Of a stretch of 22,407 bases of DNA, positions 1 through 21,382 are shown one piece after another. Source of the stretch: Candidatus Flexifilum affinis (GTDB lineage Bacteria; Chloroflexota; Anaerolineae; Aggregatilineales; Phototrophicaceae); NCBI GenBank assembly GCA_016713325.1, contig JADJPJ010000045.1, positions 1 through 22,407 of the forward strand, given 5' to 3'. A model generated the notes under the pieces. It was not told the DNA's origin, did no database searches, and was given only the letters and a program-made list of their open reading frames with translations. The translations under genes and the position numbers were made by a program. Every line of letters starts with the position of its first letter. Position 1 is the stretch's first letter.

Positions 1-1905
<1,905 letters not shown>

Positions 1906-2089
1906 CCCGCAACATAAAAACTACGTTGGCGCAGCCATCGAGAATCCGCACCGGGATGGCGACGCGAACCGGGCGGTTTTTATACGAATTTTCGACAACT
2001 CCGTCGTCGTGTTCGCGGTCCCTCAATCTGTGTTAGGGACGCGCTACTGCGCGTCCGCCAGCATAACGTGCACCTGGTTCGATGATCCT
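1906..2089. other. Spacer between truncated clpC and the dockerin relic
   Basis: No convincing gene. This stretch should carry the clpC start, ribosome-binding site and promoter, but the frame in register with clpC closes at 1921-1923 without ATG, GTG or TTG. A strong hairpin at 2037-2056 is the only clear structure. No inverted termini, target-site duplication or transposase remnant is visible at the junction. Confidence 0.5.
2037..2056 (-). terminator. Perfect 8-bp hairpin downstream of the dockerin relic
   Basis: GGACGCGC-TACT-GCGCGTCC forms a perfect 8-bp stem with a 4-nt loop. It lies about 34 bp past the TAA at 2090-2092 that ends the minus-strand relic, where a terminator would be expected. 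No T-tract follows on either strand, so the terminator role is inferred. Confidence 0.4.
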
Positions 2090-3840
2090 TTACGGCGCTC
2101 CGACCTGCCCGGAAATTCGTCGCCAGCAGCGAAAAAGTCCTCGCAATGTTGACGATATTGTCGTCGTTAAGTCGGCCCGCGCGTCGAACTCCGGGTGCCA
2201 GAATTCGCGTCCAAAAGCCGCCGCCAGGAGCGCGAAGTCGCTGATGTTGACGACGTTGTCGTTATTGGCATCACCCTCCGCAGCGTGCCGGATCGACGAT
2301 ATCCCCGGCATGCAACGTCACCGTGACGGCGTTGGCCAGCGCGATGTATCTGTTTGGCGCGAATACGGTATTCGCCTGGGGGCAGGGCATACAGGCTAAA
2401 CACCCCATGCAGCGACGTGTACAGCGTATAATGCGTCGGCAATTCGCCGCCGTCTTCGCGCGTGAACGTGACGGTCAGCGGTAGCTTTCAAAGTAGGTTG
2501 GTGCCCCTCCAGTCCAGCGGTTCCAGTGACTGAAGACGCCGGATGTCAGCGTGAAGTCGATGTTTTGGGTTTGCTCGCGGCCAGGCCTCTACGAGGTGAT
2601 CCCACTGCGTCGTAGGTAGGCCCGGTCATTCCCCATCCGCCGGTAGGCGGGGGACGGTAGCTACCCGTGAGGAGGAGTCGGTACGCCGCTGAATCGGTCG
2701 CAGCTGAGAACCTGCCCCGGACATGACTTCAACGGCCTCGATACTGGTCGATCGATTGGCGTCGTGCCTCCTCTGCGAAGACGGTCCCGCTGATTCGGGC
2801 GGCGCCAAGAAAGAAGTTGATATTCGGCATGTCGCTGTTTGCCGTCACATTGAGAGCATCTGCCGTGATCGAGGAAGTCCGGTCATTGTAGTACTCAGTG
2901 CGAAACCCGGCGCGGGCACTGACGATGAACGGCCCTTGTAGCGCTTATCGACTCATAATAGCCGTCGCTATTTGGTAGGCTACCGATACCAGCGACTGTT
3001 CAGGCTGTATCCGTAAACCGCAGCAGAGGCGATGGGGTGATCCCATCGGCCTGTTTCACCCTACCTGACATCACCGACAAAATTGTCGAGCGTGAAGTCG
3101 ATCCCCATGACATATTGTTCGGAGTCAACACGAAGCAGATTGGCCTCGGTATCCCGGATCTGCTGCTCGTAATATTCGTTGTACTTTCCCTCGAACGACG
3201 CGCTCACGATGTAATTTCCCGGAACGACTTGCACGCCGCACGTTCGTCTGTGCCTGTTCTGAGAAAACAGTAGGATGCCGAGCCATCTCGGTGCACGGCG
3301 ACTTGCATTGGCGATCGGTGTGATCCCGTCCGTGTTGGCACGCCCGACCGCTGATTGCGCCGTATTTATCCAGGGTGAGTTGTATGTTTGGAGTCGCCCG
3401 CCCCGGGGACGACCATCACAGGCCGAGCAAACGCCGGGTCGAGCCTATCCGCGTAGTATTCGGTGACGTATCCGCTGAAGCCTGTACTACATCTTCCAGC
3501 GGAGAGACTTGCAGGTAACTACCGTCCGCGTATACGCCTGAGCAACTGCCACGTACGGGCTGCCCGGCATAATCGAAAAGGCAACGAGTGCCCTGCGATG
3601 GGTGTCATCCCATCGGTTTCGGTGACAATGCCGCTGATACCGCCGGATTCATCTGCGCTCGGTGCGGAGATCGATGTCGAAATAGGGAAGACGATTGCCA
3701 GCAGAACAGAACCGTGGCAAGTGAAAAGAGAATACGCCTGTTCAATTTCTCGCCAACCTCTCGTGACCAAGTTTGCGGGATCATCAGGATGATGCCAAAT
3801 ACACTGGCGAATTTCCGGCTAGCCAGCGTATAAAACCATG
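2090..3840 (-). pseudogene. Decayed secreted repeat protein with dockerin-like C-terminus
   Basis: Relic of an exported multidomain protein, readable only by switching frames many times. In order on the minus strand: a signal-peptide-like stretch (RRILFSLATV, then LLAIVFPISTSISA in the next frame, about 3670-3745). Then come carboxypeptidase-regulatory-like units opening ISGIVTETDGMTPIAG (about 3605), ISGRVANTDGITPIANA (about 3320), SGRVKQADGITP (about 3035) and ISGTVF (about 2790). Each runs on to strands such as GNYIVSASFEGKYNEYYEQQ and YRVSARAGF-like segments. A section with PPGEYRIRAKQ precedes a dockerin-like pair: GDANNDNVVNISDFALLAAAFG, then in shifted frames NDDNIVNI and DFSLLATNF. 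The stop is TAA at 2090-2092. Base composition is visibly less G+C-rich than the neighbours. Surface adhesion or polysaccharide binding is only a family-level guess. Confidence 0.75.
3034..3610 (-). repeat. About 284-bp spaced repeats encoding regulatory-like domains
   Basis: A 10-mer of the form GG(T/G)GTxATCC, antisense to the codons for DG(I/M)TPI, starts at 3601, 3317 and 3034, giving periods of 284 and 283 bp. A weaker relative lies near 2757. This matches domain repeats of about 95 residues in the relic protein. Confidence 0.6.
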
Positions 3841-3845
3841 AGTAA

Positions 3846-3866
3846 CTCTTTCTATTTTATAAAGAG
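3846..3866 (-). promoter_or_regulatory. AT-rich palindrome with possible -10 upstream of the relic
   Basis: CTCTTT-ctattttat-AAAGAG is a perfect 6-bp inverted repeat just upstream of the relic's 5' end. On the minus strand it contains TATAAAAT, which could be a -10 element, but no convincing -35 sits at standard spacing. It may be a promoter or operator remnant. Confidence 0.25.
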
Positions 3867-4000
3867 AGCGTTGAGTGGAAGGCCATTCAAATGACCTGTT
3901 CTGGTGTGATAACTGTCACGACATGGAGAGGGTGTGCCCATGCGCGCAGGCACAGACAGGCCCTCCCTCGGCGCTGCTCATGCTGATCTGTCTTCTTGTG

Positions 4001-4425
4001 TCATTGTTCCGCAGGATCAGCAACCTCAGCCGGTTCCAGAATCAGCTCCGTGGTGGTGCTGGCGGGCGCGACGCCGGCTTCCCACCTGGCTGAGGCGGGC
4101 AGCGCGCAGCGAGAACCCCAGTCGCTCGATCAGCCCGGCCAGGGCATCGGCGATCTGGGCATAGGATGTCTCGCTCAGGCCCCACTCGCGGCTGAACTCG
4201 ACCTCGGTGTCGCGCAGCTCGTTTACGAACCAGCCGCTCAGCCGCAGATCGCGCATGCCGCTCTTGTTGACCGACCGGCCCAGCCCCGCCTCGGCCACCG
4301 TCACCGGCCGCTCACCCGGGCACGATCGGCGCGACCTCCAGCCGGAGCAGCCGCAGGTCCAGCCGATCCTCCTCTTCCGCCCCGGAACAGATCACCCCCC
4401 AGTACCTTCTTGACGACCGAGATCC
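4001..4425 (-). pseudogene. Uncharacterised soluble protein, frameshifted
   Basis: Not recognised. The clearest segment (about 4304-4080) reads VTVAEAGLGRSVNKSGMRDL, then a stretch including GWFVNELRDTEVEFSREWGL and AQIADALAGLIERLGFSLRA: acidic and helical in character, with G/C-biased third codon positions. Upstream, a different frame reads AEEEDRLDLRLLRLEVAPIVPG and ends at a TGA near 4312, right where the clear segment takes over. That suggests one frameshift. Downstream, a third frame continues with an Ala/Glu-rich tail to a TGA at 4001-4003. No signal peptide or membrane segment is seen. It directly follows the two-helix membrane gene that ends at 4426 and was probably co-transcribed with it. 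The intact start cannot be placed with confidence. Confidence 0.45.
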
Positions 4426-4734
4426 TCAGTCTTCGCCGGGGTCACTTTCGCTGCGGGCGACCCGCTCCAGGACAGAGGCAATCTCCAGGATGGCGATGCG
4501 GCGGAGCGGCGGAGGCCCCGACGACCAGCGGCGCAAGGTCAGCGCCAGCCAGACGGCGAGGACGATTGGCACGGCCGCAAACGGTTCGAGGGCGAAGGAC
4601 AGATCTGCCAGCAGGACGAGGGTCATGATCACCGCCAGCAGAATACCGTTGAGCACCAGCAGGCGCAGCGCACTCGACGACTCGGGGCTGTCCGGCTCGC
4701 CTTCCTGGGCCAGATCGCGCTTCAGGGCGCGCAT
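4426..4734 (-). CDS. Small two-helix membrane protein
   Basis: Uncharacterised integral membrane protein of about 102 residues. The start is taken at the ATG of MRALKRDLAQEGEPDSPESS; 10 further in-frame residues lie upstream to another possible start at 4764. An acidic, Ser/Glu-rich head of about 25 residues precedes two hydrophobic helices (RLLVLNGILLAVIMTLVLLA and PFAAVPIVLAVWLALTL). The loop between them is short, and the helices are followed by a basic turn (RRW) and an acidic tail ending ESDPGED. The basic flank after the second helix suggests both termini are cytoplasmic. It lies 195 bp downstream of the Trp-rich repeat gene on the same strand, with a hairpin between them, and may belong to the same transcription unit. 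The frame is intact, which makes it more likely to be expressed than its neighbours. Confidence 0.6.
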   Translation of the reverse strand: MRALKRDLAQEGEPDSPESSSALRLLVLNGILLAVIMTLVLLADLSFALEPFAAVPIVLAVWLALTLRRWSSGPPPLRRIAILEIASVLERVARSESDPGED

Positions 4735-4929: not shown

Positions 4930-5762
4930 TTATCGTTTCGACGAAAGCATGCCCCGAACGACCTGCGCGGTATGGCGGATATCCCCGGCAACCGACGCCC
5001 GTAGTTCTCGAATGGGTCGGACCAGATTTGGCCCAGGACGCGAAGCTGCGTCTTGACCCGCCCCGCCAAAGGCGCGGATCTGCGCCATGATTTTGCTGGC
5101 GGTAGCCCCGGAGTGTCGTGGCGATTCTCGTCCACACGGCGCGGATGTCGGCTCGAACCTGAGCCCACAGCGCCTTGATCTGCGCCCAGATAGCGCGCAT
5201 GACTGCCGCCAGCCAGGCGCGCACGGCGATCACCACCTGCCGGACCATTCGCCATGCAGAGCGGATCGCCGCCATCACGGAGCGCCAGATCTCCAGCGCG
5301 AAACCGCGCCAGACTCCCCAGCAGCGCCGCGACCATGTGCCGAACCGCCATGAAGATGCGAACGAGTCCCTGTTGTACCCATCTGATGCCGGCCGTGAGG
5401 GTATGCCAGGCCCAGGCGGACGCGCGCCAGATCGGCGTGACGACGGCGGAGATGAGACGCACGATGCCGTTCCACACCCAGCGGACCCCGGCGGTGATGG
5501 TGTGCCAGGCCCAGGTGGACGCGCGCCGGATCGGCGTGACGACGGCGGAGATGAGACGCACGATGCCTTGCCACACCCATCGGACCCCGGCGGTGATGGT
5601 GTGCCACGCCCAGGCGGACGCGCGCCAGACAGGTGTGAGGAAGAACGAGACGACGCGGACGATGCCGTGCCACACCCAGCGGACTGCCGCAGTCATTCCG
5701 TTTCGCACCGAGACGAGCGCCCGGCCGATTGACCTCAGCAGCGCGGCGGCGCCCTGAACCAC
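4930..5762 (-). pseudogene. Trp-rich 11-residue-repeat protein, C-terminal part (frameshifted)
   Basis: C-terminal part of the repeat protein that starts at 7032. It contains near-identical 33-residue units (TPxxRASxWAWHT, then ITAGVRWVWxGIVRLISAVV), each equal to three 11-residue amphipathic turns. It then moves into another frame near 5290 as ALEIWRSVMAAIRSAWRMV, followed by RAIWAQIKALWAQVRADIRA, the same 11-residue rhythm with W, I, L, V on one face and R, K, Q on the other. Near 5095 it changes frame again, giving KIMAQIRAF, then segments near RELRASVAGDIRHTAQVVRG and a TAA at 4930-4932. The preserved chemistry across frames shows one ancestral coding region. No enzyme motif is present. 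Family membership is unknown; a membrane-surface or lipid-binding role is inferred from amphipathicity. Confidence 0.6.
5404..5700 (-). repeat. Three tandem 99-bp units within the Trp-rich gene
   Basis: Copies at 5404-5502, 5503-5601 and 5602-5700, each opening TGCCA(G/C)GCCCAGG(C/T)GGACG on the plus strand. The first two are nearly identical, sharing ATCGGCGTGACGACGGCGGA and the bases that follow. The third is diverged in its last third. 99 bp equals 33 codons, so copy-number change keeps frame. Confidence 0.85.
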
Positions 5763-6057
5763 GAGGCTCAGAGTTGGCGGAGGCCGGTGATCAGCGCGTG
5801 CCAGGGCTCACCAGGCGCGCCAGCCGAGCGTCATCCAGCTTCGCAAGGCGCGGACCGCCTGCGCGAGACCGCGCCACAAGGTGCGCAAAGCGACCACCAC
5901 CCCGTGCCAGACGGTGACCACGCCGCGCCACCCCGTTCGAATGACGGTGGCGATCCAGGTGCGAATGGCCGCCCCGAGGCGCGCCACCGCCTGCCAGATC
6001 CGGCGGACACCGGCGACCAGCGGGGTCCAGACCATCAGGAAGAGTGGTGAAGCGCGG
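5763..6057 (-). pseudogene. Trp-rich 11-residue-repeat protein, middle part (frameshifted)
   Basis: Middle part of the same coding region, reading LFLMVWTPLVAGVRRIWQAV, then ARLGAAIRTWIATVIRTGW and RGVVTVWHGVVVALRTLWRG, and on to ALRSWMTLGWRAW. Stacked as 11-mers, each repeat places a hydrophobic or Trp pair at equivalent positions. The frame closes with TGA at 5808-5810, but another frame supplies WHALITGLRQL across the next 35 bases before the first frame resumes as SLVVQGAAALLRSIGRALVS. That suggests a compensating pair of indels. Near 6020-6057 the segment WGWVAGGLTALHHSS in the third frame bridges to the upstream part. No catalytic motif or known domain was recognised. Confidence 0.55.
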
Positions 6058-6684
6058 TCAACCCGCCGGCCACCCAACCCCAGACCGTCGGGCAATGGTT
6101 TGCACGACGTGCCCCATCCACCGAAACAGTCGCACCACCGGCGAGAACAGCCAGTGGAGGAAGCGCCCAATGCCGTCGAACACCCATTGGATGGCGGCAG
6201 CAATCAGCTCGAACACCCACGTGATGGCCTCGCCAATACGCTCCAGTGCCGATCCGATTGCGCGGCCGATAGCGTGCCAGATACGGGTGACGGCATGGCG
6301 CAACCCGGCCGTCATCTGCCACAAGAAATGAAGGATGCGGACCAGATGCCGCGGAAGCGAGGCCAGCCAGCCCCACGCCATCTTCAGCACAGCGACGATC
6401 CAGGTGCCGAGCTGAGCCAGCAGAGGGGCGAGCGCCGCCGCGGCCGCGACGAACAGCCGCCGTGCGTTGTGCATGCCCCAGCGTTCCGCGTTGACGATGG
6501 CGCGCCCCAGAGCCGCCGCCGAGGCCACGACCAACTGCACCAGCGCCCACAGTCCCAGAGCGGGCGCGGTGACGGGGAAGGCGGCCACGGTCATTTCCCG
6601 GTTGTGCCAGGGGGTTGGCGCATTCTGCGGCCCGCCCAGCGCATAGGCGGCCACGCGAAGCGCCAGGCCTTCGATCAGGTACGC
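6058..6684 (-). pseudogene. Trp-rich repeat protein, N-proximal repeats after amber codon
   Basis: Open for about 200 residues in exactly the same frame as the segment starting at 7032, separated from it only by a TAG at 6685-6687. It begins AYLIEGLALRVAAYALGG, which would complete the transmembrane helix cut by that stop. Hydrophobic, Trp-containing helices follow (FPVTAPALGLWALVQLVVAS, then LLAQLGTWIVAVLKMAWGWL). The rest is repeated amphipathic turns (GRAIGSALERIGEAITWVFE, then LIAAAIQWVFDGIGRFLHWL). A separate start within this part is possible (an ATG at about 6594, MTVAAFPVTAPALG), but no strong ribosome-binding site precedes it. The end at 6058 is a frameshift artefact, since the repeat pattern continues in other frames downstream. 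Confidence 0.55.
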
Positions 6685-7032
6685 CTAGAGCAGCGCCGAT
6701 CCCACCAGGGCGTAGATCACCAGCGGGATCATCTTCTTCTCAACCGGCCTGGCCGGCGCGGCTGCGTCGAACGTGTTTTCGTTGAAGGTTGCGACGGGTG
6801 GAGGAAATTCGCCCAGCGGCTCGACCGCTTCAGGCGGTTCTGGCGAGACTGGCGCGTCAGAGATGTTCGCGTCTGCCTCTGGCTGCCCCGCAGAAGGTTC
6901 TGTCTCGTCGGGCGGGCTATCCGGCATGGGTCGGTCGATGGGTCCCCATTCCGCTGGAGATTCCGGCTGATCGGGGAGGTTCTCCGGAATCCCCTCAATG
7001 ACCTGGTGGGTCTCTCTCTCCTGCTTCAGCAT
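6685..7032 (-). CDS. Acidic Pro-rich N-terminus of the Trp-rich repeat protein
   Basis: 115 residues with a good start: GAGGAGGG lies just upstream of ATG at 7032. Residues 1-98 are acidic, rich in Pro, Glu and Asp, and probably disordered (for example PESPAEWGPIDRPMPDSPPD). They lead into EKKMIPLVIYALVGSALL, the first half of a membrane helix, where a TAG stops translation. Translation past the TAG in the same frame completes the helix and enters the Trp-rich repeats, so this is best seen as the head of one large gene of about 700 codons (7032 to 4930), not a free-standing small protein. The KK before the helix suggests the acidic head is cytoplasmic. The function is unknown. Confidence 0.6.
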   Translation of the reverse strand: MLKQERETHQVIEGIPENLPDQPESPAEWGPIDRPMPDSPPDETEPSAGQPEADANISDAPVSPEPPEAVEPLGEFPPPVATFNENTFDAAAPARPVEKKMIPLVIYALVGSALL

Positions 7033-7269
7033 GTCCGTACCCTCCTCGGCGCATAGCCAATCTGGCGTACTGCCTGTTCAGAAGGTGCCGTTCGAACGTC
7101 GCCTTATTACTGAATCCTAATATATAGAAGGTCGAAGTCTGTAGTGTCGAATGTCATCACCCGGGCCCGGCTTGTCGGGCAGCTTGTCCCGGTTCGGCGG
7201 GACTTGTGCAACGATTTGTCCCGAGACGCGTAGAAAATAGCGCTGCAAGATGTGAAAAGGGGGCATGTA
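7033..7269. promoter_or_regulatory. Divergent promoter region
   Basis: Spacer between the divergent genes starting at 7032 (-) and 7270 (+). It holds an AT-rich core (TATATA around 7120-7130) in an otherwise GC-rich area. It also has an inverted repeat GTCCCG-gttcgg-CGGGAC at 7186-7203, with related TTGTC-CGG words at 7172 and 7213. I could not settle on a -35/-10 pair for either direction. The GTCCCG repeat may be an operator for the hydrolase gene. Confidence 0.35.
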
Positions 7270-15901: not shown

Positions 15902-15930
15902 ATGACAACCATACGAATTTGCTATATCAT
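15902..15930 (+). promoter_or_regulatory. Possible promoter of the LuxR/NB-ARC gene
   Basis: ATGACA (15902-15907), 17 bp, TATCAT (15925-15930): 5/6 at each box. The mRNA leader to the ATG at 16051 would be about 110 nt. Confidence 0.45.
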
Positions 15931-16050
15931 GAGAACTATCCGATTCAGCTCCCCGCAACCGACGTTTCACCTCTCCGCAGGCTTACTTTCCGCTCGGCCC
16001 CTGCTGCCTGCGCACCTGAATCGCTCTTACCGGAAGGGAGGCGTATTGGG

Positions 16051-17682
16051 ATGGCCAGGTCATTGGGGGATCCATCCACGGAGTTCAACGAGCGGGAACT
16101 CGAGATTCTGCGCCGTATTGCCGAGGGGCAGTCCAATCGCGAGATCGCCGATCAGCTTTTTCTCTCCGTCAACACGGTCCGCTGGTACAACAAACAGATC
16201 TACGAGAAGCTGGACACGCACTCGCGCACCACGGCCATCGCCCGCGCCCGCACGCTCGGCCTGCTCACAGCGGACGGTGACGGTGCGATTGACGGCGATG
16301 GCGCGAACGACCGTAACAGCGCGGGGTGTGACGTTGAGCGCTTTGCCGATGACGGTGGGGGCGCGGCGGGCGTAGACGAGCTGGAGGCCATCGGCCCTTC
16401 GTCCACCCCGTCCAACCTGCCCTCGCAGCTCACCCCGTTCATCGGACGCGAGCGGGACATGGCCGAACTGGCCGCGCAGTTCGCCGACCCGGCCGTGCGC
16501 CTGCTGACCATTCTCGGTCCGGGCGGCATGGGGAAGACCCGTCTCTCGCAGGAGTTCGCCCGCGGGCGGCTGGCCGAATTTCAGCACGGCGTCTACTGGA
16601 TCGCGCTGGCGCCGGTCACCGCCGAGGGCGAAGACGCCCATACTGCCGTCATGAACACCCTGGCCAGCACGCTGCACATCACCCTGCACGCCGGCGCCGA
16701 CCCCGAAGCGCAGATCGCGACCTATCTGCACAACCGGCGCATGCTGCTGGTCATCGACAACTTCGAACACCTGCTCAGCGCCGCCGGCATTGTGCGCCGC
16801 ATCCTGGAGAGCGCGCCGGGCGTCAAGGTGATCGCCACTTCGCGTGAGGCGCTGGGGTTGTACGGCGAAGTCGTCTACGCGCTGGCCGGCCTGGCCGTGC
16901 CCGAGCGCGACGCCGCCGACCCGTGGGCGTACGACTCGATCAAACTCTTCCTTCAGACGGCGCGCCGGGTCCGCGGCGACTTCACCCCCGACGAGGGAGA
17001 CCTGGGCGAGATCGCCCGCATCTGCACGCTGGCCGACGGGCTGCCGCTCGGCATCGAACTGGCTGCCGCCTGGGTGCGCTCGCTGAGTCTGTCGGAAATC
17101 CGCGAGCAGTTGGAGAACGGGCTGGACATTCTCGAAAGCCGCACCCACAACATCCGCCATGTCTTCGATCGCTCCTGGTGCCTGCTCGCTGAATCCGAGC
17201 AGGTGGCCTTTGCCCGCCTGTCGATCTTCCGCGGCGGCTGCACGCGCGAGGCGATCCAGTCGGTCACCGGCGCCAGCCTGCGCATGATCGCCTCGCTGGT
17301 CGACAAATCGCTCCTCTGGCATCTGCCCGACGGCCACTACGCGATGCACGAACTGCTGCGCCAGTACGCGACGGAGCAGCTCGATCGCCTGTCGGGAGAG
17401 GAAGCGGTGCAGACGCGGCACTGCGACTACTACGCCGCCCTGGCCGGTCGCTGGGGGCGCGGCGTGCAGGGCCTCCAGCAGCTCGAAGGGCTGGAGATCC
17501 TGGAACAGGAATACCAGAACATCCACGCTGCCTGGCAGTATGCCGCGCAGCATGGGCGAGAGGAAGCGCTCAAGGAACTGCTGGAGATGTGGTACTTCTT
17601 CGACATTCGCGCGCTGGCGCGGGGCGAGGAGCTGTTCCGCACGGCGGCGGCCAGCGTGGAGGGGCTGACGCGCGCCGTCTGA
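16051..17682 (+). CDS. LuxR-HTH / NB-ARC ATPase regulator, N-terminal part
   Basis: STAND-type transcription regulator. The start at 16051 is set by GGAAGGGAGG at 16032-16041; a frame open from 15919 adds 44 non-conserved residues. Residues 8-72 form a LuxR/GerE helix-turn-helix (EFNERELEILRRIAEGQSNR, EIADQLFLSVNTVRWYNKQI, then YEKLDTHSRTTAIARA). An Asp/Gly-rich linker covers about 74-115. An NB-ARC module follows: FIGRERDMAEL, P-loop GPGGMGKT at 156-163, Walker B MLLVIDNFEHLL, the sensor region KVIATSREALG and LADGLPLGIELAA. A winged-helix and helical part ends YHAAWQY-like repeats before a TGA at 17680. The HTH is N-terminal, unlike MalT/LAL proteins where it is C-terminal. The TPR half continues in the next frame, so the stop is probably a frameshift. 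Confidence 0.88.
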   Translation: MARSLGDPSTEFNERELEILRRIAEGQSNREIADQLFLSVNTVRWYNKQIYEKLDTHSRTTAIARARTLGLLTADGDGAIDGDGANDRNSAGCDVERFADDGGGAAGVDELEAIGPSSTPSNLPSQLTPFIGRERDMAELAAQFADPAVRLLTILGPGGMGKTRLSQEFARGRLAEFQHGVYWIALAPVTAEGEDAHTAVMNTLASTLHITLHAGADPEAQIATYLHNRRMLLVIDNFEHLLSAAGIVRRILESAPGVKVIATSREALGLYGEVVYALAGLAVPERDAADPWAYDSIKLFLQTARRVRGDFTPDEGDLGEIARICTLADGLPLGIELAAAWVRSLSLSEIREQLENGLDILESRTHNIRHVFDRSWCLLAESEQVAFARLSIFRGGCTREAIQSVTGASLRMIASLVDKSLLWHLPDGHYAMHELLRQYATEQLDRLSGEEAVQTRHCDYYAALAGRWGRGVQGLQQLEGLEILEQEYQNIHAAWQYAAQHGREEALKELLEMWYFFDIRALARGEELFRTAAASVEGLTRAV

Positions 17683-18718
17683 TGGCGCGGCAGTCGGTCT
17701 TCACTTTCGGCTCGGGCTGGGCGAACAGACCCGCCAGCTTGTCGAGCGCAGCATGGACGCCTTCCGCTCCGCAGGCGCCGAGGCCGAGCTGGCGATGCCG
17801 CTGCTGACTCTCGGCCACCTCATCTTCTTCCAGGGCGATCTCAGTGGGGCGCCTGCCTACTATGAGCAGGCTATCGCGCTGGCCACGCGCTACAACGATG
17901 CGCTGGTCGTCGTCACTGCGCTGATTCGACTCGGCGCCAGCGCCATCAATGCCGGCGACTATGCTGAAGGGCGCTCGTCGCTCCAGCGCGCGCTGGAGCT
18001 CAGCCGCCGCATCGGCGATACCATGTCCACGTCGCTGGCGCTGATCAATCTGGGGGAACTGGAAATGCTGGTGGGCGATGTCGAGGCGGCGGCCATCTAC
18101 TATCGCGGGGCGCTGGGGACGGCGCAGCGCATCCGCCAGCACTACGTGATCGCCGGGGCGCTGGCGGAACTGGGCCGGGTGGCGTTCCTGCACGGCCGCT
18201 ATGAGGAAGCCGAGCGCCTGGTCGAACAGAGTCTGAGCCTGCATCTGGAGCACGGCAACCTCCGGTTCGCCGTCCGCTGTCACGCCTATCTGGCCAGCAT
18301 CGCCTGCGCCCAGGACGACTACGCTCGTGCGAATGCCCATTTTCTGCGCGCCTTCGAATACACTTTCGCGGTGCATGCGTTTGGTCCCGGCGTGCGTCCG
18401 CTGCTCTTCCTGGCCGACTGCTTTGCCAGGCAGGGGGATTTCGCCCGCGCGGTCGAGATCTGGACGCTGGTCGCCCGCTATGACGGCAGCAGCCGCGAAC
18501 AGCAGGAGGAGGCGGCCCGTCGCTGCGAAGAAACGGCCTCCCTGATTCCTGCCGAGCGCTTCGATGCGGCGGCGCGGCGCGGCAGCGGGATCGACGTCGA
18601 AACGATGCTCACGTCGCTCATGACGGAACTCGCAGGGGCAGGCTGGGGCGCTCGCAGCCCCTCGAACAGATCCGACTCCACCGCTCGCCCGCCGTTGACC
18701 AGGCTGAAAGCGCGGTAG
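17681..18718 (+). CDS. TPR sensor half of the LuxR/NB-ARC regulator
   Basis: Continuation of the regulator after an apparent one-base insertion near 17670-17680. The new frame reads DGAAVGLHFRLGLGEQTRQL, VERSMDAF and then at least six TPR-like helical hairpins. Examples are LSGAPAYYEQAIALATRYND, GDYAEGRSSLQRALELSRRI, GDVEAAAIYYRGALGTAQRI, GRYEEAERLVEQSLSLHLEH and DDYARANAHFLRAFEYTFAV. Joined to 16051-17682 and with one base removed, the gene is 889 codons. An independent start at the ATG at 17753 is possible but has no good ribosome-binding site. TPRs would sense a partner or ligand and control the ATPase switch. The last 80 residues overlap the 3' end of the PIG-L gene on the other strand, and about 30 of them (after LTSLMTELAG) look non-native. 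Confidence 0.82.
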   Translation, partial: DGAAVGLHFRLGLGEQTRQLVERSMDAFRSAGAEAELAMPLLTLGHLIFFQGDLSGAPAYYEQAIALATRYNDALVVVTALIRLGASAINAGDYAEGRSSLQRALELSRRIGDTMSTSLALINLGELEMLVGDVEAAAIYYRGALGTAQRIRQHYVIAGALAELGRVAFLHGRYEEAERLVEQSLSLHLEHGNLRFAVRCHAYLASIACAQDDYARANAHFLRAFEYTFAVHAFGPGVRPLLFLADCFARQGDFARAVEIWTLVARYDGSSREQQEEAARRCEETASLIPAERFDAAARRGSGIDVETMLTSLMTELAGAGWGARSPSNRSDSTARPPLTRLKAR

Positions 18719-19452
18719 TAGGTCTGAACGCCGAAGATGCGGGCGCGGCCGTCGTCGTCGAGCCGCAGCAGGCCCTCGAAGCCGCCGACCTGCGACTGAT
18801 GGCACTGGACGGCCTCCCAGACCCAGGAGGACGGCGTGGTGTCGATGCGCGTGGTGATCGCCCAATCCGCCCAGGCGACCGTCCGGCGCTCCGTCCCGTC
18901 CACCTGCATGACCAGATCGCCAAACGCCGCCTGGTAAGCGCTCATCTCGTCGCTCGATGCCACGCGGTAGTGGAGCTTGGCGACCCGGTGCGGCAGACCG
19001 CCGAAGCCGTAGGACCGGTCGGCCGCGGCCACCACCGCCGCCGTCGTGAACTGCGAAATGGCGATGTGGTCGGGATGTCCGTAGATCCCATTGGGATCGA
19101 AGGTCAGCACTACCTGTGGGCGGATGCGGCGCAGGTGCAGCACGAGCTGGAGGATGGCCTCGCGCGGCGGGACGCGGTCGAGTTCGCCGTCGAGATAGTC
19201 GAGGAAGGCGACATCCTGCACACCCAGGGCACGGGCGGCGCAGAGCAGCTCCGGTTCGCGGATGCGCCCCAGGGCTTCTTCGCCGGGGTACAGCGCCGGG
19301 TCGCCGGGCCACCCCCGTTCGCCGCGCGTGGCCGTCACGACATACGTTTCCACTCCCTCGACCGCCGCTAGAGCCAGCGCTCCGCCCATCCCGAGGGTTT
19401 CATCGTCGGGATGAGCGGTCACCGCGAGCAGGCGCAGACGTTCAGGTCTCAT
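18478..19452 (-). CDS. PIG-L family LmbE-like zinc deacetylase
   Basis: 324-residue deacetylase of the PIG-L/LmbE/MshB group, which removes N-acetyl groups from GlcNAc-type sugars. The metal motif AHPDDETLGMGG is near residues 13-24, and the second zinc ligand region is GIYGHPDHIAIS. Between them are VVTATRGERGWPGDPALYPG and REPELLCAARALGVQDVAFL, typical of the family. The start at 19452 has GAGGA 6 bp upstream; longer readings are non-conserved. The gene begins 16 bp after the inferred MFS stop, so the two likely form an operon. The natural end appears to be near LVNGGRAVESDLFEGLR (about 18650). The frame then runs on about 55 more residues, antisense to the TPR gene, to 18478, so the C-terminal tail is suspect. 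The actual substrate is unknown. Confidence 0.88.
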   Translation of the reverse strand: MRPERLRLLAVTAHPDDETLGMGGALALAAVEGVETYVVTATRGERGWPGDPALYPGEEALGRIREPELLCAARALGVQDVAFLDYLDGELDRVPPREAILQLVLHLRRIRPQVVLTFDPNGIYGHPDHIAISQFTTAAVVAAADRSYGFGGLPHRVAKLHYRVASSDEMSAYQAAFGDLVMQVDGTERRTVAWADWAITTRIDTTPSSWVWEAVQCHQSQVGGFEGLLRLDDDGRARIFGVQTYYRAFSLVNGGRAVESDLFEGLRAPQPAPASSVMSDVSIVSTSIPLPRRAAASKRSAGIREAVSSQRRAASSCCSRLLPS

Positions 19453-19468
19453 GATCTTCCTCGCTTCG

Positions 19469-20711
19469 TCAACTGGTCGAACTGGTCGCCAGAGCACGGC
19501 GGGGCGAAAGAGCCAGCCGCACCACCGGCACCGCGGCAAATACCAGCACCATGGTGAGCGCCAGCGTCAGCGAGACGCCCAGCACCTGCACCGCCATCCC
19601 GGCCCCGGCAAAACTGACCACCGCGCCGATCCAGCGGGTGGCGGCGAAGCGCCAGACTGCTCTCCAGCGCGGATGGCGGGGCCATCTCGGTCACCAGCGC
19701 CGAACCGATGGCGAAGCCGGAGTTGACCAGGGCGATCAGCGCCGCGGCGATCCAGAAGTGCCAGGCGGCGGTGGCCGGGATCATCAGGGCCACGCCGACG
19801 GCCGCCAGCGTATAGCAGGTATACAGGACGCCCCGCCGCCCGATCCGGTCAGACAGCCAGCCCATGACAAAGGGCAGCGGCAGGTTGATCAGCCCGGCGA
19901 AGGCGACCGCGCCGGTGATCTCGCTGGTGCTGAAGCCGTTCGCGTCCATGGCGAGCGGGCGGACCATCTCGCCGACGAAATTGCCGCTAAACGCCATCAC
20001 GCTGGCCGCCAGGATGAGCAGGAAGGCCCCGCCGAGCGGCGCGCTGGACCGCAGGGCGGCGAAGGTCCCGGTCTGGACGGCGGCATAGCTGCCCGTCTGC
20101 GTGAGCAGATAGCTGCCGGTCTGCCTGGCCGCCGCAGGTGAAGCCGGCGCCGCTTTGGCCGGCTGCTTGTCGGCCAGCCCCAGCGCGATCACCGCCAGCA
20201 GCAGCCAGAGCGCCGCGGAGAAGGTGAACAGGGCGGGGAATCCCCACCGGTCGACCAGCGCGCCGGAAACCAGCCCGCCGATCACCTGGCCGAGCGCCAG
20301 CGCCACGCCCATCACGCCGAAGGTGCGGCCCCGGCTGCGATCGTCGGCAAAGAGGCCGGTCAGGATGGTCAGCATGGAGGTGGAGATGCCGAACAATCCC
20401 CAACCCAGCGTCGTCAGCAGGCCGAGCTGAACGACGTCCTGCGCCGTGCCCATCAGGAAGAACAGCGGCGCGTTGAGCAGGGCCGGCGCGATGATGAAGA
20501 GCTTGCGCCGTCCAAAGCGTCCCGACAGCGAACTGCTGCCGATGGTGGTGATGGCCAGCAGCGCGAAGGCGATGGCCAGGAACAGGCCGGTCTGCGCGGC
20601 GTCGGCGCCCAGCGTGCGGGCGTAGAGCGACATGACCGCCATGATGCTGCTGCCCACCGTGCTGGGGAGCAGGTAACACATGAAAAGCAAGATGAGCTGC
20701 TTTCGGGTCAT
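19469..20711 (-). CDS. MFS transporter, DHA1-like (one frameshift)
   Basis: 12-helix major facilitator of 413 residues after removing one inserted base near 19648. AAGGAGGG precedes the ATG. The first half has MAVMSLYARTLGADAAQTGL and the MFS motif A-like loop SSSLSGRFGRRKLF, then LTGLFADDRSRGRTFGVMGV and GQVIGGLVSGALVDRWG. The second half has NLPLPFVMGWLSDRIGRRGV. The frame changes after TEMAPPSALESSLA; the next frame reads FAATRWIGAVVSFAGAG and continues with two more helices to a TGA at 19469-19471. The central cytoplasmic loop carries an unusual repeat, TGSYLLTQTGSYAAVQTGTF. Proton-driven efflux is typical; the substrate is unknown. It is likely co-transcribed with the PIG-L gene. Confidence 0.86.
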
Positions 20712-20790
20712 CGTGGGACCCTCCTTTCAAATTCCGTTCTGAATTTGGATGGCGCCTGTGAACCTCACCCGTCAATCCATTCTCCGGGGT

Positions 20791-20862
20791 GAACCTCACC
20801 CCTCAATCCCCTCTCCATACTGGAGAGGGGAGGCTAAGCGAAGCGCAGCAGGGGTGAGGTTC
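20791..20862. repeat. Nested inverted repeat, intergenic element
   Basis: Outer arms GAACCTCACCCCT (20791-20803) and AGGGGTGAGGTTC (20850-20862) are perfect 13-bp complements. Inside lies TCCCCTCTCC-atact-GGAGAGGGGA (20807-20831), a perfect 10-bp stem. An incomplete extra arm (AACCTCACCCGTCAATCC) precedes it at 20761. A diverged copy is at about 10299-10337. It sits between the DinB-like and MFS genes and may act as a terminator, but it looks like a dispersed mobile-type element. Confidence 0.75.
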
Positions 20863-20869
20863 GCCAGAA

Positions 20870-21382
20870 CTAGACGTGGAACTCGATGGTGCGGCGGATG
20901 TGCATGGCCATCCGCCCGCTGCGGTAGGCGCGGGATTTGCGCCGCGTGCTCGCGTTTGTGCCCGTAGAAGGCGCCGACGATCAGGTCTTCGGCATCGCGC
21001 AGGCCGGCGCCCCAGGGCACCGGGACCTGCTGGCGCAGCTTATCGTCCGGCAGGTGCAGCAGCAGGTCGATCGCCGTCTCGTAGTAGGCCTGGTACTCGT
21101 CGACAATACGGTTCAGGGGCAGATCCTGCCGCCGCGCGATGGCCGCCACGTCGAAGCCGTCGGGATCGGCCACCCATCGATCGAAGTCGCTGGTCGGCGT
21201 TGCGTCGTCCAGCCGCACCAGGATATCGACCAGGACCGCCTCGCTGGAGGCGATGTGGGCCATCACCTCCTTGATCGACCACAGCTCGCAGGCGCCGGCC
21301 TGTGCGCTCCTCTTCGCCGATCCCCTTGATCGAGGTCGAGCAGAATCCGGTGCCCCTGCTCCATGATGCTGAGAATGTGCAT
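20870..21382 (-). CDS. DinB-like four-helix protein (frameshifted)
   Basis: Small protein of the DinB/YfiT superfamily, four-helix metal-binding proteins that include thiol-dependent transferases. The start at 21382 (MHILSIMEQGHRILLDLD) has GGGGAG about 9 bp upstream. After one or two indels near 21300-21330 the frame gives LWSIKEVMAHIASSEAVLVD, matching the family's W-S-x-K-D/E-V-x-x-H-I helix. It continues RWVADPDGFDVAAIARRQDL, NRIVDEYQAYYETAIDLLLH and FYGHKREHAAQI, with His positions suited to metal binding. Near 20930 a third shift restores AYRSGRMAMHIRRTIEFHV and a TAG at 20870-20872. The total of 513 bp stays divisible by three. The exact role is unknown. Confidence 0.7.

Follow-up and report, generated by a model that had tools for sequence, protein, structure and literature searches.

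A frame-broken gene pair in Candidatus Flexifilum affinis with a predicted membrane-coating giant amphipathic helix

What does a bacterium encode where tryptophan- and arginine-rich hydrophobic helices run through several reading frames of one strand? The question is raised by a stretch of 22,407 nucleotides from Candidatus Flexifilum affinis, here called the window. A sequence-only reading had placed there, at 4930..7032, one large protein with hydrophobic and Arg-bearing helices over about 2.1 kb. The helices are present on the minus strand from 7032 to 4931, spread over three alternating frames, and the region is a single Trp/Arg-rich protein of about 700 amino acids (protein A), frame-split in the window. 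Gene A does occupy that extent, but the unit is a gene pair reaching to about 4026. Its parts and neighbour are listed here.

6739..7032, minus strand: acidic Pro-rich head of protein A, residues 1-98, with 22 D+E, 4 K+R and 21 P; acidic heads also occur in the relatives G823 and G803
6463..6765, minus strand: conserved domain and predicted anchor, from alignments with the relatives: hydrophobic segment, T-x-W-H-x-x-E-M loop, AFPVTAP, second hydrophobic segment
4936..6462, minus strand: body of protein A, an amphipathic Trp/Arg helix in several frames (residues 191-700; 8.2% Trp and a net charge of +55)
5388..5684, minus strand: three tandem copies of 33 aa (99 bp)
4931..7032, minus strand: gene A as a whole, about 700 aa in a broken reading frame (acidic head, predicted membrane anchor, giant Trp/Arg amphipathic helix); open in one frame in the relatives
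4026..4716, minus strand: gene B, broken; two stretches match an open 289-aa gene of G823
4083..4304, minus strand: soluble domain of gene B; its counterpart in G803, 73% identical over 74 aa, is fused to protein A
1..1893, minus strand: clpC, the downstream neighbour

Genes A and B and their relatives

Protein A was read through by joining the frames with an X at each join, giving about 700 residues. On the minus strand, GC content by codon position starts in frame 0 at 7060, passes to frame 2 at about 6086 and to frame 1 at about 5336, and keeps this last frame to about 5036; the shifts roughly coincide with the frame shifts of the hydrophobic pattern. Two intervals in the head give frame 2 a narrow preference, and past 5036 the signal is weak. 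A Shine-Dalgarno-like GAGGAGG lies eight bases upstream of the ATG at 7032. The acidic Pro-rich head of the earlier description is borne out by its composition. A hydrophobic segment follows it as described, but there may be two membrane segments in the anchor and not a single helix: hydrophobic segments lie at residues 102-120 and 158-176 of the read-through, with weaker ones at 198-216 and 325-343.

The first database and family searches with protein A gave no relative. The order of genome G001 was chosen for a further search because the locus L001 (Anaerolineae bacterium MAG_05) shares LuxR-like, LmbE-like, MFS and DinB-like genes with the window. These genes stand in the same order in L001 and at 15919-21329 of the window; the names MFS, DinB-like and LmbE are in part our presumption. 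The set comprised 154 genomes of that order, including an Anaerolineae MAG, and two of them, G823 and G803, hold relatives of A; in the G001 genome itself, the searches made revealed no gene A. Four of the 154 genomes matched in the search with A, of which three were judged to be chance matches and G823 (E 4.5e-7) was retained. BLASTP of a window piece against G823 gave E 6e-23 over 243 columns. A profile of the conserved domain found G803 at E 2.7e-23; at E <= 0.1 it matched 14 of the 154 genomes, and the 12 others lie at E 0.005-0.083 once G823 and G803 are set aside. Over this domain the window is 40% identical to G823 and 65% to the G803 piece.

In G823, gene A is one open frame of 464 codons up to the contig end. 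A second G823 contig starts inside the same type of repeat (DNA 89-94% identical) and bears a C-terminus, which we infer to belong to the same gene. The G803 protein is intact but short (316 aa): an acidic head and the conserved hydrophobic segment lead into a helix some 90 residues long, and a soluble domain forms the C-terminus. In the sequenced pieces of both relatives, a single frame thus runs through the head, the hydrophobic domain and the W/R helix, in agreement with the earlier proposal of one gene for a reconstructed protein of about 700 residues. That proposal had called for a search for intact homologues and had named unrelated genes as the alternative source of the segments; with G823 and G803 found, the segments do not come from unrelated genes. 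Among the loci examined, tblastn with the G803 protein (0.01) matched only the window, G823 and G803. The motif T-x-W-H-x-x-E-M is invariant in three sequences (window 6463-6765, L137 927-1256, L142 1495-1680); AFPVTAP follows it in the window and G823 and is absent in G803.

Gene B of the window corresponds to the 289-aa G823 protein in two frames (4716-4321, 34% over 134 aa; 4304-4083, 59% over 74 aa), and its N-terminal part would lie further upstream, unmatched by this comparison. In G823, gene B comes directly after the C-terminus of A, and three hydrophobic segments precede its soluble domain; in both the window and G823 the protein has predicted membrane segments plus a soluble domain. 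As read from the sequences, the window carries gene A and then gene B, both frame-broken, while G803 carries an A-B fusion. A B-domain profile, whose rows include G803 and the window, matched two of the 154 genomes, the same two that have A, and two of 298 genomes in a class sample (G803, which is itself among the profile rows, and, weakly, G261 with E 0.009). Protein B stayed below cut-off with VTT_dom (17.7 bits; cut-off 33.9) and a holin family (E 0.19), and had no match among plasmids at E <= 1e-3. The fused gene of G803 also has clpC downstream, separated from it by one long ORF; neither of the two G823 contigs showed a clpC. In the window, a stretch of about 2.1 kb with lower GC (1906-4025) separates clpC from gene B; here no minus-strand frame exceeds 130 aa and no Rfam match was obtained.

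Further frame changes occur in unrelated genes of the window, namely the LuxR-like gene (17600-17760), the MFS gene (19496-19660) and the start of clpC (1893-2060), which points to indel errors being widespread in the contig. Because the relatives are open and other window genes are also frame-broken, sequencing or assembly errors are likelier than decay as the cause of the breaks in gene A. Runs of at least four equal bases lie near only four of the nine inspected joins. A frame of 391 aa is open on the plus strand opposite gene A (5881-7056) and reads like the antisense of a GC-rich gene. It is very unlikely that gene A has decayed or is an artefact, with a pseudogene or antisense frame that yields no working product. 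The several frame changes, the one in-frame stop in the conserved domain (6463..6765) and the overlapping plus-strand frame would fit such an origin, but the same protein is kept open in the sequenced pieces of G823 and G803, only two of 44 base changes between the 33-aa repeats fall at second codon positions, and the breaks in other genes, including the clpC start, point to sequencing errors.

The helical rhythm

Residues 191-700 of protein A follow one coherent hydrophobic period of 3.645 (power 65.0; maximum of 300 shuffles, 13.8), and the whole read-through peaks at 3.64 (power 32.2; maximum of 200 shuffles, 5.6). Pairs of bulky hydrophobic residues, of Arg/Lys and of Trp are each in excess at lags of 11, 22 and 33, with z 6.2, 4.1 and 5.5 for Trp. 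Along the body the hydrophobic phase shows only a slow drift, and it continues through the frame joins. Both relatives share the rhythm, with periods of 3.630 in the N-terminal piece of G823 (power 61.7; largest shuffle 11.3), 3.640 in its C-terminal piece (24.0; 10.5) and 3.635 in G803 (12.7; 7.7). The repeat of G823 measures 69 aa, with identity of 162/180 at lag 69 and 27/183 at lag 66. The rhythm of A is therefore amphipathic-helical and not strictly 11-residue: of the strict 11-residue rhythm first described, the amphipathic character and the lags of 11, 22 and 33 stand, but the period is 3.64 rather than 3.667 and the G823 repeat is 69 aa long. Repeat lengths of 33 aa in the window and 69 aa in G823, with periods of 3.630-3.645, suggest that the helical face is held constant.

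Residues 191-700 hold 64 K+R, 9 D+E and 42 Trp. In the four segments compared (window, two of G823, G803), the polar face is 22-30% R+K and the apolar face 0-6%, a split that is partly circular, as the faces were assigned from the same residues; each of the four carries a net charge between +1.1 and +1.5 per 11 residues. Pairwise comparison of the three 33-aa copies gives 44 base differences, distributed 20/2/22 over codon positions 1/2/3, the pairs not being independent. Among the six frames, gene A's own has the most silent codon changes between these copies (20 silent versus 21 not). AlphaFold models of pieces of A, made from single sequences without an alignment and hence weak, contain long helices (mean pLDDT 66.1 and 75.2; pTM 0.31 and 0.35), and a Foldseek search of the PDB with the model of a 152-aa repeat piece gave no match; the other model is of a 313-aa piece.

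When 3532 stop-to-stop frames of at least 150 aa from 121 loci were screened for the rhythm, the window scored 36.9, a tape-measure protein at locus L081 33.8, and the next frame, on the opposite strand of the L081 locus, 15.2. The L081 protein (1-3204), a phage tape-measure protein, comes from a genome of the same class and combines a Trp-rich 3.64 rhythm with an almost neutral net charge.

Database searches and the tape-measure likeness

The sequence-only reading had recognised no family for protein A. This holds insofar as neither A nor B scored above the cut-off of any Pfam or NCBIfam model, but the Trp-rich rhythm has a parallel in phage tape-measure proteins. Protein databases searched with the 700-aa read-through (whole, 90-330 and 414-700; about 8000 candidates each) returned nothing except a tail-type protein, P0001, at E 0.02. 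The middle piece of A had no relative in genome contigs or viral contigs. Solved-structure sequence searches yielded weak rows (best E 0.42 and 0.31) or none, PADLOC a single row at E 0.44, and Rfam no match. Among the literature matches listed, seen as titles and the starts of abstracts and mostly outside subscription papers, no such bacterial protein was described.

In wider genome searches, the read-through matched none of 16 genomes at E <= 0.001, and the four of these 16 touched by the repeat piece (E 0.26-0.80) were taken as chance. Among 396 genomes of the class, with at most two candidates scored in most genomes, the read-through matched 50 at E <= 1 (52 matches), the best being the L081 tape-measure protein; the frames under 23 of the 52 matches were read, and the 22 besides L081 were dropped. 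Three or four of these 22 (L085, L088, L093 and perhaps L099) presumably carry tail-sheath or tail-tube genes. A window frame at 4764-4429 matched 11 of the 396 genomes (best E 8.5e-4). The repeat piece matched ten of 400 genomes of the phylum at E <= 0.01 (11 matches), of which four loci were examined.

These matches raise the question of whether protein A is itself a tape measure in the tail of a phage or in a tail-like machine. All four scanned window pieces touch PHROG tape-measure profiles (best E 0.011, 4.3e-6, 0.0045 and 0.0081), with an 'endolysin' profile scoring better in the first piece (E 0.0051), and A of G823 reaches such profiles at E 5.1e-8. P0001, the sole database match at E <= 10, carries PF10145, which we take to be a phage-tail domain. 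The 19 phage records that match the 33-aa repeat piece are annotated as tape measure (16), minor tail (2) and hypothetical (1), the two best genomes for the repeat piece (G506 and G499) seem, by reading, to hold tail-type proteins, and L081 has the same period and Trp content as A. However, two register-keeping shuffles of the window repeat piece match tape-measure profiles equally well (E 3.1e-6 and 1.3e-5), whereas its reverse gives E 0.23 and its full shuffle nothing. Rhythm and composition in that direction thus explain the tape-measure matches of the window, the piece that these controls cover, and the Trp-rich amphipathic central helix that A shares with tape-measure proteins is not specific to them. 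Such controls also carry a warning that tape-measure profile matches can arise from rhythm alone.

Gene content and charge speak against a tail protein as well. A lacks the tape-measure core (TIGR01760 or PF10145), while L081, as a control, has TIGR01760 at 2.5e-15. No tail gene or family appears among the nine scanned ORFs of the window, and none was noticed on reading the ORFs in L153, in L155 or in the opening 2.6 kb of the other G823 contig. Alignments of the A domain and of the B domain found no counterpart in viral contigs. Net charge per 11 aa is +1.2 in A against +0.2 in L081. A tape-measure protein is accordingly the least probable of the readings considered here; a distant homology to such proteins, through the rhythm alone, is conceivable.

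A candidate membrane coat and its known parallels

The reading that we prefer, with about an even chance of being right, is that of a gene pair in which A is an anchored giant amphipathic helix whose tail is predicted to coat the cytoplasmic leaflet, likely together with B. Protein A would comprise the acidic head, the conserved hydrophobic domain as predicted anchor and a continuous amphipathic tail of about 500 residues, which would coat the lipids by lying flat on the leaflet, likely with protein B. In the window, three K/R precede the first hydrophobic segment and three follow the second; these flanking charges predict that head and tail are cytoplasmic, with the short T-x-W-H-x-x-E-M loop outside. 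The topology is uncertain because the charges agree less well in the relatives, the second hydrophobic segment of G803 having three K/R before and one after, and that of G823 one on each side. The bulky V/I/L/W face may insert among the lipid chains while the arginines pair with phosphates. At 0.15 nm per residue, the 510 residues would make a helix up to about 76 nm long, which could then cover, stiffen or bend the membrane, with protein B perhaps acting at the same site. The function of the pair as a membrane coat is proposed by analogy, and a point that counts against it is that tape-measure proteins share the rhythm yet are not membrane coats.

Being rich in bulky residues, the tail might instead insert or form helix bundles. 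Amphipathic helices that are cationic and rich in Trp are similar to membrane-active peptides, and several further stretches of the body exceed a hydropathy of 1.6, so that additional membrane passes are possible. On this basis the helices could bundle across the membrane as a pore or channel, a conduit or permeabilising assembly in which the acidic head would neutralise the basic tail. The slow phase drift along the body and its lack of pass-length units make such a pore unlikely. Alternatively, the basic face of A could keep an anionic polymer, DNA or polyphosphate, at the membrane, for which the excess of K+R over D+E in residues 191-700 and the predicted cytoplasmic position of the window tail may be cited. 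Since no nucleic-acid-binding family reaches its cut-off in A, and the wide bulky hydrophobic face favours lipid first, this tether is improbable to a slightly greater degree than the pore.

The lipid-coating reading has its closest parallels among lipid-surface proteins, the analogy drawn at the outset, which remains the best physical match for A. Apolipoproteins A1/A4/E (PF01442) and apolipophorin-III (PF07464) likewise have amphipathic lipid-surface helices; the C-terminal piece of G823 scores far below the cut-offs of both families (12.5 bits against 90, and 13.4 against 36.3). Phage tape-measure proteins resemble A in the Trp-containing amphipathic helix with its 3.64 period (L081) and in the weak profile matches; A differs in its acidic head, conserved hydrophobic domain, strongly basic polar face and partner gene B.

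Giant amphipathic lipid-coating helices have been described in eukaryotes, in perilipin-4, where lipid-droplet targeting increases with the length of the helix and the helix has a weakly hydrophobic face with a net charge of +1 per 33 aa (PMC5889406). Protein A is likewise a very long, repetitive and basic amphipathic helix, and the giant 11/33-residue repeat of perilipin recurs in the window as three 33-aa copies with the excess at lags 11, 22 and 33. A differs in its predicted membrane anchor, its bulky V/I/L/W face, its net charge of about +3.6 per 33 aa and, in G823, its 69-aa units. Pfam scans of the window pieces and the relatives gave no perilipin match at E <= 1. Perilipin-4 is the nearest physical parallel to A, with relatedness unsupported by any test here. 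Selection may, as the nearly equal periods of the 33- and 69-residue repeats suggest, hold the helical phase alone constant and not the repeat length or sequence. If the reading is true, a bacterial two-faced helix of about 500 residues, hydrophobic on one side and Arg-rich on the other, would together with its predicted anchor and its partner gene make a simple, ruler-like scaffold for the membrane. More tentatively, the pair may represent a bacterial membrane-coat system, an independent counterpart of perilipin-4, in which an anchored helix of up to about 76 nm and a dedicated membrane partner coat and shape the inner leaflet, the repeat unit (33 or 69) being free while the rhythm of about 3.63 is kept.
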